In this document: positions 24,310 through 25,986 of the stretch, one piece after another
Numbering within the stretch: the first letter of the stretch is position 1
Layout of the letters: each line of letters starts with the position of its first letter
Virus record (IMG/VR): IMGVR_UViG_3300035157_000431
Span: 1-27,435 of that record
Strand: one strand, 5' to 3'
DNA: 27,435 nucleotides
Origin: a virus
Translations under genes and position numbers: made by a program
Notes under the pieces: generated by a model
Seen by the model: only the letters and a program-made list of their open reading frames with translations
Told to the model about the DNA's origin: nothing
Databases searched by the model: none

Positions 24310-25053
24310 ATGAACACAGAGGAATTAGTAGCAATGTACGAGGACAACAGGAAGGGAAGGTTAAACGAAGTAGTTCATGAATATCTGCATGATAGTGCAA
24401 GCACACCAGAGATATTCTTTGAGGATCTTAAATCAATTTTTACTGGTCATGCTAACCATAAGATAGAAGAAGCAAGGTTGGCAGAAGAAGCAGCACTTGC
24501 TAAATCTGAGGAAGCAGCAAGAATTGCAGCAGAGTTAGCGGATAAGGTAGAAGAACAAAATGCTGCACAAAATGCAGCAGCAGACGCACAACAGTATGCG
24601 TCATTCCATGATGATGTCGTGGTTGCCTATGCTGGTACTGCATTTGATGCACCACAGTATTATGCAACTCCAGAATCATATAATATTGATTCAAGCATTT
24701 ATCCACCAGATCATCCATATCATATTGATACCAGTATATCAGTAGGTTCAACCGCAGGATACCCAACAACAACATATACTGTAGATACCACAACATATGG
24801 TGATGTAAGTATTGCATCAAGTGAAGCAAATCCAACAGGATATTATGACCATGATCTTGCTGGTCCATATTATGTTGATGGTCATAGCGATGTACATCAA
24901 GTACCAACAGGTATTGCATCAAGTGAAGCAAATCCAACAGGATATTATGATGAACCAAATAATGTAGATCCTCAAACACCTGAGACTTATACAGTTCCAG
25001 AACCAGAGTTTGATCCTTTAGCAGTACCATCTAAATTTGACAATCATCGCTGA
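24310..25053 (+). CDS. Ala/Glu coiled-coil protein with Tyr-rich repeat tail (247 aa)
   Basis: The front 55 residues are charged (MNTEELVAMYEDNRKGRLNE, then FFEDLKSIFTGHANH). Residues 56-98 form an Ala/Glu/Lys coiled coil (EEARLAEEAALAKSEEAARI). From 99 on the protein is Tyr/Asp/Pro/Thr-rich and likely disordered or fibre-like (PYHIDTSISVGSTAGYPTTT). The unit IASSEANPTGYYD occurs twice, 34 residues apart. I know no family. The Tyr-Pro-Thr tail may be surface-exposed, but no signal or membrane segment is present. It is probably an early or middle gene, as it follows a sigma70-like promoter. Confidence 0.65.
   Translation: MNTEELVAMYEDNRKGRLNEVVHEYLHDSASTPEIFFEDLKSIFTGHANHKIEEARLAEEAALAKSEEAARIAAELADKVEEQNAAQNAAADAQQYASFHDDVVVAYAGTAFDAPQYYATPESYNIDSSIYPPDHPYHIDTSISVGSTAGYPTTTYTVDTTTYGDVSIASSEANPTGYYDHDLAGPYYVDGHSDVHQVPTGIASSEANPTGYYDEPNNVDPQTPETYTVPEPEFDPLAVPSKFDNHR
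24811..24950 (+). repeat. Exact 38-base direct repeat within a coding tail
   Basis: The 38 bases at 24811-24848 recur exactly at 24913-24950, an offset of 102 bases or 34 codons. The unit begins ATTGCATCAAGTGAAGC and encodes IASSEANPTGYY plus the first two bases of the next codon. Because the offset keeps the frame, this is a protein repeat, not a CRISPR or transposon remnant. Confidence 0.9.
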
Positions 25054-25127
25054 TGAAAAAGATTCTAGCATGGATTAAGAAGTTTTTGGACTTAAATAAC
25101 CAACGACCTTGGGAACCAGATGAATAA
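25053..25127 (+). CDS. Tiny peptide, 24 aa
   Basis: The 24 residues are MKKILAWIKKFLDLNNQRPW then EPDE. The front is a short amphipathic basic helix. The ATG shares a base with the preceding stop (TGATG). A terminator follows 8 bases after the stop. The position at an operon end supports it weakly. Confidence 0.45.
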   Translation: MKKILAWIKKFLDLNNQRPWEPDE

Positions 25128-25134
25128 CTGTCAC

Positions 25135-25161
25135 AAACCACCTGTAACAGGGTGGTTTTTT
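25135..25161 (+). terminator. Intrinsic terminator
   Basis: AAACCACC (25135-25142) pairs with GGTGGTTT (25151-25158) around an eight-base loop, followed by T residues to 25161. It closes the operon that starts at 24310 and separates it from the RNA candidate. Confidence 0.85.
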
Positions 25162-25165
25162 GGTA

Positions 25166-25171
25166 TATAAT
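25166..25171 (+). promoter_or_regulatory. TATAAT box before the RNA candidate
   Basis: A perfect -10 (GGTATATAATAGG) lies 4 bases after the terminator. No consensus -35 exists; the place for it (25143-25148) is TGTAAC, inside the terminator loop. A transcript from here would begin near 25178. Confidence 0.45.
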
Positions 25172-25177
25172 AGGTTC

Positions 25178-25557
25178 ATCAACATAAGTGAGGTTCTTAA
25201 CTACTCTGACATCCAAAACTTTGGTACTGTTCCAAATGACTGGTAAGAAGCAGAGACATGACGTTAAGGTAATTGACTTCCCCTCCAGTTGATGACCGCA
25301 GAGGTAACTGATGTGGTTGCTATGCCCCATTAAGTTGGGGGTACAGGTGTAAGCGATTCCCATAGCGTAAATTTGGGCATGACTGGTGAAACCAGCGTAG
25401 ATGCCCCACGTTCCTCTCACACTATCCGCAGCATGAGTTAGTACCTGACCATTGTGGGCAAGGATCTATGGTTGTCTCTGTTCAGCAGGGAAATTACGTC
25501 CTGTTAGTCCTACTAAGAGCAGTCAGGTGAAGCACCTCTTGACCATGCTGCTTTTTT
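25178..25557 (+). ncRNA. Candidate structured non-coding RNA (about 380 nt)
   Basis: This is the largest stretch without a believable gene, visibly richer in G and C than its surroundings, and bounded by a -10 box and a terminator. Stems I can pair by eye: CAGAGACA (25251-25258) with TGTCTCTG (25473-25480), which encloses about 214 nt; CAGTT/AACTG (25286-25310) with inner ACC/GGT; GCTATG/CATAGC (25319-25366) enclosing CCCCA/TGGGG; GGGCAT/ATGCCC (25375-25406) with inner CTGGT/ACCAG and a GAA loop; AGCAGG/CCTGTT (25484-25505). These fit a multi-domain RNA. I do not recognise RNase P, tmRNA, 6S, SRP or an intron core. A frame on the - strand crosses the terminator and I reject it. Exact ends are inferred. 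Confidence 0.65.
25518..25557 (+). terminator. Intrinsic terminator of the RNA candidate
   Basis: AGCA/TGCT, GTCA/TGAC and GGTG/CACC stack around an AAG loop with two small bulges. Six T residues follow (25552-25557). It is also part of the RNA's 3' end. Confidence 0.75.
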
Positions 25558-25576
25558 ATTCTTTGCTATTAATCAC

Positions 25577-25789
25577 ATGATTGATGAGTTACTAAAACAT
25601 TTAGAATACTGCATCGACGTATGTGGTATGACTGATGAACAAACAGGAGAGTTCCTAGGTGTTTGTCTTGATATAGGTGTATCTCCTGAATATTTTAATG
25701 AGGAGTTCTTAGTTCTTGACAGTGAAGACTGCCATAACGATGAGTACCTAAACATAGCAGAATTTAATTGCATGTATTGGGAGCAGTAA
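25577..25789 (+). CDS. Unknown acidic protein with several cysteines, 70 aa
   Basis: The 70 residues are acidic, with five cysteines (YCIDVCGMTDEQ, GVCLDIGVS, DCHND, FNCMYWEQ). The front is helical (MIDELLKHLEYCIDVC). It starts 19 bases after the RNA terminator's T-run, so it is probably transcribed from read-through or from its own weak signal. It is coupled to the next gene by TAATG. No family recognised. Confidence 0.6.
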   Translation: MIDELLKHLEYCIDVCGMTDEQTGEFLGVCLDIGVSPEYFNEEFLVLDSEDCHNDEYLNIAEFNCMYWEQ

Positions 25790-25986
25790 TGACTTACAAA
25801 CAAATCAATTACCAACAACAACAGTACAAAGAACTGCATCCCAAACCACTCTCAAGGTATGAGCAATTCCAAGAATGGTTAAATGAATGTCCTGTACAAA
25901 TTGAAGAGTACACAGACAACACAGATCATGCTATAGTAAGGTTTGATCTTCCATTTGAACCAGAGGATGATCATGCTGACGACTAA
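25789..25986 (+). CDS. Unknown small protein, 65 aa
   Basis: The start at ATG 25789 overlaps the preceding stop. The 65 residues are Gln/Tyr-rich in front (MTYKQINYQQQQYKELHPKP), helical in the middle (YEQFQEWLNECPVQIEEYTD), and acidic at the end (FEPEDDHADD). No known domain. Confidence 0.6.
   Translation: MTYKQINYQQQQYKELHPKPLSRYEQFQEWLNECPVQIEEYTDNTDHAIVRFDLPFEPEDDHADD

Follow-up and report, generated by a model that had tools for sequence, protein, structure and literature searches.

Positions 25177-25557 of the window, the whole stretch of DNA that was analysed (an IMG/VR virus record, 27,435 bases long), are the gene for a folded RNA of a previously undescribed kind. The candidate RNA lies on the + strand and comprises ~380 bases; its class occurs in marine phages, and the named carriers are T4-like cyanophages. 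It is a modular RNA whose parts can replace one another and nest recursively, arranged around three conserved hubs, A, M, and E. The novelty lies in this architecture: modules keep their sequence while moving between slots, nested in either order. An earlier note on this DNA, which had proposed a structured RNA with its own -10 box, a terminator, and a 10-base long-range pairing, is confirmed in part: it was largely right, what it saw is larger than first described, and the long-range helix is not borne out.

Three domains of the window RNA covary: M spans 25190-25285, A spans 25301-25416, and E spans 25428-25551; the loop of E carries module B (25457-25510). The features, all on the + strand, are as follows.

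25135-25164, +: terminator-like hairpin (25135-25158) and T-rich tail behind the preceding gene
25166-25171, +: -10 box TATAAT, 10/12 matches counting its -35 partner
25177-25183, +: P0 5' strand CATCAAC, close to where transcription is expected to start; predicted from sequence to pair with 25288-25294
25190-25285, +: module M, with the motif GAAG..ACATGA
25190-25193/25282-25285 and 25196-25201/25263-25268, +: M helices GAGG/CCTC and CTTAAC/GTTAAG
25204-25208/25251-25255, +: M stem CTCTG/CAGAG
25211-25246, +: M slot, a 36-nt insert in the window, mostly replaced in the same-site relative L151
25288-25294, +: P0 3' strand GTTGATG, from sequence
25301-25416, +: module A core, from alignment, covariation, and cmsearch
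25301-25304, 25306-25308, and 25313-25315 with 25407-25416, +: A helix P1
25319-25324/25361-25366, +: A helix P2; P2b lies within the slot
25325-25345, +: A slot, in its short form
25346-25359, +: unpaired A core GGTGTAAGCGATTC, without variation in a 31-sequence alignment
25375-25380/25401-25406, +: A helix P3, with inner hairpin 25383-25387/25391-25395
25428-25551, +: module E, outer stem GCAGCATG/CATGCTGC at 25428-25435/25544-25551
25444-25449/25522-25527, +: E inner stem CCTGAC/GTCAGG
25457-25510, +: module B in the E loop
25461-25465/25498-25502, +: B helix AGGAT/GTCCT, one G-U
25475-25480/25486-25491, +: B hairpin TCTCTG/CAGGGA, one G-U
25525-25529/25533-25537, +: E hairpin AGGTG/CACCT, overlapping the inner stem and thus an alternative to it
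25552-25557, +: T6 run after the E closing stem; a T-run is present in L151 too
25577-25789, +: downstream 70-aa ORF, starting 19 nt past the T-run

The G+C content reaches 0.42-0.49 over the RNA vs 0.35-0.40 in adjoining 200-base steps, with one nearby exception to the lower values (0.42 at 24500-24699), in agreement with the bump described before. The proposal that the region holds no convincing gene is upheld by frame counts over 133 module-A spans among the matches listed, which show no conserved reading frame: all three plus frames are closed in 117 and all three minus frames in 91, and the length of 62 is not divisible by three. These closed frames rule out a coding explanation of the RNA region; a minus-strand 129-aa ORF (25031-25420) overlaps part of the window RNA. 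The folding energy of the single sequence is unremarkable (z -1.11; 14/100 shuffles at least as stable), and support for the stems comes from covariation, not from folding energy.

The window is only distantly related to phages in the collection searched. A megablast search with positions 1-25000 returned four records, all P-SSM2 or P-SSM5, at 1% coverage and 88.7% identity. Positions 24900-25800 gave partial blastn matches in nine records: three entries of P-SSM2, one of P-SSM5, and five records of single-cell marine viruses; the matching pieces in P-SSM2 are reordered with a gene between them, which first pointed to a modular build. Scanning IMG/VR for exact matches to a 16-base A core and a 19-base B core identified at least 193 loci (L008-L200). 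Seven named loci (L001-L007) raise this to at least 200, and the window makes 201 sequences. Named records belong to the Kyanoviridae or to unclassified Caudoviricetes. One match, L009:8891-9057, is a chance occurrence of the 16-mer within a coding tandem 33-base repeat (DSQSPSWTGVS).

Module A is a new class, defined by a P1-P2-P2b-P3 fold, covariation, and conserved GGTT, CAGGTGTAAGCGATTCC, and TAAATTTGG. Among the matches listed, 133 of 143 cores followed by TAAATTT have the predicted P2 partner strand, with GGTT before it, no more than 450 nt upstream; these copies use 12 P2 stem types. Slot counts exclude the ten cores for which no exact P2 partner lies within that distance; eight of them lie near contig ends, and L025 and L099 do not. 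We aligned 31 short-slot copies (30 distinct, window included) and evaluated 29 named pairs, for which 95.2% of the pairing cells are paired. Changes on both sides occur in 18/29 pairs (shuffle mean 9.3) and in 111 cells (shuffle mean 33.8), values that 0/500 shuffles reach in either case, and the covariation score is 0.352 vs 0.144 in shuffles. Shifting the partner columns by 1-3 leaves at most 10 double-change cells. The number of further pair types does not exceed that in shuffles (123/500), and the weakest helix is inner P3, paired at 83.8%. Unaided, RNAalifold recovered P2, P2b, P3, and part of P1 from the alignment, and the covariance model R1, which includes the window sequence itself, located the window copy at 25300-25414 (cmsearch, E 6.8e-28). 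The invariance of the A core is partly built in because most of the 143 cores were fetched by an exact 16-mer. The A core may resemble a stretch of 16S rRNA.

For module M, 167 matches to the 3' motif were obtained. We kept the 76 copies in which an exact five-base stem encloses the slot (ten stem types, listed loci; one copy and one type are the chance match L147) and excluded 91 without a partner. Twelve of the excluded matches were inspected; coding sequence is among them, and L016 is apparently a genuine variant. Scoring the kept copies by their own stem is circular, as they were chosen for it, and a second scan, seeded with the 3' strand of M in the single stem type CAGAG, served as the check on fresh loci. 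It yielded 34 new loci, 33 of them away from contig ends. The predicted CTCTGAC partner was present in 33/33 testable loci vs 1.6% of random 260-nt segments, and the second M helix formed at least 4/5 pairs in all 33. Module M also stands without module A in genome records from other cyanophage genera, those of S-SSM4 (L203:1306-1366) and P-SSM7 (L204:2501-2560); the S-SSM4 copy lies ~150 bases 5' of a tRNA-Val gene.

In module E, the outer partner strand is found in 41/45 copies (7 types), and the inner partner as well in 38 (6 types). Among the 107 copies of module B listed, the hairpin changes from TCTCTG/CAGAGA to TCTCAA/TTGAGA in 16 and the second helix from GA/TC to GG/CC in 10. The long-range helix between 25249-25258 and 25473-25482 can form, with nine Watson-Crick pairs and one G-U. 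However, all nine tested pairs are kept in only 17/39 copies carrying both M and B, while the local B hairpin pairs 6/6 in 39/39. CAGAG at 25251-25255, which the M stem uses as its 3' strand, falls in the left arm, and the 5' strand of the B hairpin (25475-25480) falls in the right arm, so that the long-range helix clashes with two supported local helices. Poor conservation and this clash led us to reject it as a real element. Covariation is present for the RNA as a whole (modules A, M, E, and B) and absent for the long-range stem.

The modules occur inside one another: A in M, M in A, and B in A, M, or E. Among the matches listed, 107 full B copies in 101 loci are located in the A slot (20), the M slot (15), M within A (3), or the E slot (7, including the window); the rest are free and then followed by module D (19), free or otherwise placed (29), or at a contig edge (14). 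M lies within A in 20 A copies, some of which hold B or E too, and A within M in 2 (listed loci); loci from the second scan add one case each of A in M and E in M. The A slot ranges from 18 to 267 nt in the 133 copies measured, among the matches listed, and with the similarity ratio set to 0.85 its fillers form 49 types, including four short loops. We compared 80 locus pairs at the same site, in which both flanks are at least 80% alike over at least 150 nt; the pairs share loci and are non-independent, and the flanks include adjoining RNA modules. The A slot is dissimilar (ratio <0.6) in 32/80 pairs and near-identical (≥0.9) in 34/80, and the P2 stem differs in 27/80. L018 and L021 are 96.8% and 98.4% identical in their flanks, yet B (77 nt) occupies the slot in one of them and the slot of the other is short (23 nt). 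By eye, B, J, K, and G share the frame GGC...TGTAAGTCC, as though one internal loop took different hairpins.

A comparison of the window with L151, which occupies the same site, separates constant from exchanged parts. The promoter and P0 (25164-25189) are identical at 26/26 positions, the 3' part of M at 43/44, the A core at 14/14, and the E 5' part at 20/20. The M slot has 12 identical, 4 changed, and 20 missing positions; P2 differs at 4/6 positions per strand with pairing kept; and the remainder of A, including P3, matches at 37/48. Upstream (24901-25163) we counted 203 matches, 55 mismatches, and 31 gap positions, and downstream (25553-25800) 141 matches, 73 mismatches, and 58 gaps, to which the cut L151 end contributes. 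Hence the promoter, the M frame, the A core, and the E 5' part are nearly constant in L151, whereas the sequence flanking the RNA diverges.

Module A is close to single-copy. The 201 sequences scanned contain 143 A cores in 142 of them; only L025 has two, the second without the 5' half. Among 30 records searched, 22 have one module A, one has a single copy split into two hits, and 7 have none; the A-free records include the S-SSM4 and P-SSM7 genomes, and most other records are contigs and possibly partial. The main hits in 23 phage records score 56.7-136.4 bits with the A model, and a weaker second hit in W06 scores 21.3. Module B is found in 17/30 records, one copy each; two copies per locus occur in 6/101 loci for B, 4/37 for E, and 1/74 for M (L025; an apparent second M in L147 is due to chance). 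In bacteria and archaea, 57 exact hits to the 16-mer core all score at most 22.5 bits, and by our own arithmetic ~119 chance 16-mers are expected in 257 Gb; hits that score like chance lend no support to a cellular origin of A. The 252-kb P-SSM2 genome has one module A (56699-56814, A model), which rules out a multi-copy regulon of leaders all bearing A. Within its first 100 kb, 17 typed module queries clearly match only two adjacent loci, two further 14-17-base hits (E 0.03-0.05) being chance; two such RNAs thus stand side by side, each preceding a gene. RNA annotation is absent at these loci in the P-SSM2 and P-SSM5 records.

Recursive insertion and the high turnover of slot content are what would be expected of a selfish or neutral mosaic, in which small structured elements insert into one another by recombination and survive by being harmless. 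We consider this very improbable: compensatory changes, invariant unpaired residues, a start linked to the promoter (below), and one A per record suggest selection on the RNA, which is also more conserved than neighbouring sequence, and selfish elements would tend towards multiple copies.

Several other elements were noticed, the first two of them by eye. TAACTGGCACA or TAACTGTCACA recurs at or near the end of a gene before a -10 box, sometimes with a GC-rich terminator hairpin next (L001 ~3100, L012, L025, L105, and others; ~25125 in the window), and looks like a gene-boundary element. An F-type hairpin often stands after module A; at L202:2725 (P-SSM2, downstream of manA), an F-like hairpin CTCCTTTGGTAGGTTCAGG...GGAATCTACC lies behind a -10-like box and before another ORF. 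Module D (CGAGGAGATGGATGTGCC...ACTAACATCC; L001:2559-2610 and 46 other matches) has GAGGAG-ATG and the open frame MDVPLGSQPKKELTS, which is found in 27/43 copies, the rest being RGSPPL-type or other variants, two with an early stop. Its inner hairpin covaries, and an RNA helix and a short peptide may overlap. We dropped a peptide gene in D, given that compensatory hairpin changes alter residues and 2/43 copies stop early; the opening of the frame is usually kept.

The hairpin at 25135-25158 with its T-rich tail would make the RNA a separate transcription unit. The -10 box of the window, taken alone, is no better than chance (2 promoter-like sites, shuffle mean 2.6); what sustains the RNA's own promoter is a fixed distance between the -10 box and the RNA start among relatives. 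We surveyed 114 distinct module-A contexts (among the matches listed) for a hexamer with at least 5/6 matches just upstream. A -10-like hexamer precedes A in 72/114 contexts vs 108/456 control segments, and in 51 of the 72 it ends 19-21 nt before GGTT, which is 5-7 nt before P1; of 17 M-first copies, 14 have the box 8 nt before their outer stem. The first transcribed base should therefore lie in the first base pair or beside it, and we infer a 5' end at ~25177. At the other end, the proposed terminator stands in part. The stem 25428-25435/25544-25551 is followed by six T, but it encloses 108 nt and is not a classical short hairpin, and a terminator scan of the window did not list the T6 run. 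A discrete transcript with its own terminator is likewise partly supported: between A and the next ORF, a T5 run is present in 46/110 copies (matches listed) and absent in 64, and many copies are therefore probably co-transcribed with the ORF.

A same-strand ORF (at least 35 codons, within 700 nt) follows A in 110/110 copies with enough flank, a mechanical pick and partly expected. In 31/110 copies it starts no more than ~28 nt from P1; this leaves little room for a promoter, so many copies must be mRNA leaders. These positions, the 5' ends paired from the expected start, and the two RNAs of P-SSM2, each directly 5' of a gene, argue for a cis-acting 5' leader, whose fold, closed from +1, would keep host RNases from degrading the transcript in a 5'-end-dependent manner. 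The downstream gene would be expressed more strongly or for longer, and any folding module would suffice, hence the swapping. Such a leader, which we regard as a serious possibility, would explain the short ORF distances, the missing T-runs, and the neighbouring RNAs of P-SSM2. It sits less well with the few RNAs per genome (one A in the 252 kb of P-SSM2, two RNAs in its first 100 kb), with near-invariant unpaired residues that exceed a shield's needs, and with the lack of any gene-family preference; moreover, an ORF behind the RNA is expected anyway where genes of the region are mostly on one strand. According to passages of PMC2518516, phage infection of Prochlorococcus MED4 is accompanied by upregulation of RNase E; this would speak for a 5' shield whether the RNA acts in trans or in cis.

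The location between a -10 box and an ORF, the T5 run in 46/110 copies (in the window right after the E stem), and conserved, aptamer-like unpaired residues are also compatible with a riboswitch-like, ligand-sensing attenuator, maybe in tandem, in which metabolite binding would decide termination at the last stem and T-run. Riboswitch classes usually accompany related genes. Here, the 122 mechanically picked downstream ORFs (matches listed) fall into 33 BLASTP clusters, distant kinship aside, an approximate number of unrelated families since the ORFs of L041 and L072 traverse RNA modules and some small ORFs share a YFxEEF-like stretch (by eye); a consistent link to related genes is thus not seen. 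The 70-aa ORF of the window clusters with ORFs after four other RNA copies and has no PHROG match. Free swapping of slot modules at one site and the 64/110 copies without a T5 run also speak against an attenuator, which we consider unlikely even though the manA and wcaG motifs have been proposed as cis-regulators in cyanophages (in the sections of PMC2864571 consulted).

Ahead of the cis-acting leader, we tentatively place a stable trans-acting RNA. On the sequence evidence at hand, the RNA would be transcribed from its own -10 box, and with its first nucleotides paired at once it is therefore probably stable. The near-invariant unpaired core of A (GGUU, CAGGUGUAAGCGAUUCC, UAAAUUUGG) may serve, as a binding site or through its three-dimensional fold, to engage a factor of the host or the phage. 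The slot modules would be recombination cassettes, traded between co-infecting phages and altering the particle surface, with this exchange perhaps under arms-race selection, and the downstream gene could be carried on the same transcript via read-through or processing. A trans-acting RNA would explain why A is nearly single-copy, why the RNA is indifferent to which gene lies downstream, why unpaired residues are conserved, and why the window has a T-run. In its favour are also the covariation in A, M, E, and B, the RNA start pinned to a promoter, cassette exchange at the same site, the lack of any single downstream gene among the 33 clusters, and, in L151, RNA parts that are conserved while the flanks diverge, together with the closing stem and T-run of the window. 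Against it stand the many copies in which no T5 run separates A from the next ORF, the ORFs that start too near P1 to leave much room for a promoter, the modules B, E, and M, which are not strictly single-copy, the two RNAs of P-SSM2, each before a gene, and the second A core of L025 without its 5' half; covariation, for its part, is evidence of structure, not of trans action.

It is quite conceivable, if somewhat short of an even chance, that phages share a pool of folded RNA cassettes for the hub slots, used recursively, which diversifies a trans-acting RNA against hosts or rival phages. If so, fast recombination would give near-identical phages different RNAs at one site, an RNA-level variation akin to antigenic variation or modular protein repertoires. 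The architecture itself suggests that complex RNAs can evolve through domain shuffling, like proteins. The cultured phages P-SSM2 and P-SSM5 thereby gain RNA loci open to direct testing, and the slots and cassettes may find use in RNA engineering.

The comparison with known RNAs supports the earlier view of an unknown structured phage RNA that is neither tmRNA nor RNase P, as do homology and covariation. An Infernal search against Rfam 15 gave no hits in the window at the gathering cut-off. At E ≤10, positions 25000-25700 gave four chance rows (E 2.8-8.7), all within 25081-25164 and outside the RNA; at E ≤1, one set of nine related loci gave none and one set of ten gave one sub-threshold isrI (E 0.44). 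ARAGORN found 0 tRNA or tmRNA genes in the window, which together with the Rfam result excludes both; RNase P RNA has no match in the whole-library search, and GOLLD and ROOL have none in such searches of the window and related loci. No manA (RF01745) row appears in the window.

Among possible analogues, T4 RNAs C and D are stable small RNAs of a T4-like phage, to which the present RNA may be likened. The xrRNAs and the ompA-type 5' stem are models for shielding action and would be analogues of action only, if the shield model is right. The portions of the open-access literature searched, preprints aside, contain no description of this RNA class; the closest prior work is drawn from parts of PMC2864571, PMC9964418, PMC9602691, PMC2518516, and PMC12286853. 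Like manA, the RNA is a structured element of T4-like cyanophages, P-SSM2 among them, that lies between a -10-like box and an ORF. However, manA matches P-SSM2 only at 142837-143034 (181.6 bits, E ≤10), a site other than that of module A, and nested swappable modules are not mentioned for manA in the sections of PMC2864571 consulted. The wcaG (RF01761) and PhotoRC-II (RF01717) RNAs are likewise structured cyanophage RNAs (parts of PMC2864571 and PMC9602691), but in the window no family reaches the cut-off and lax thresholds give only chance rows of others. GOLLD and ROOL are large structured phage or prophage RNAs, GOLLD being conserved in its 3' part and less so in its 5' part (passages of PMC12286853). 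Against 659 nt for ROOL and >800 nt for many GOLLD RNAs (same passages), we estimate ~120-500 nt from the loci found here; in contrast to both, there is no tRNA gene in the window, and the modules are swapped and nested.
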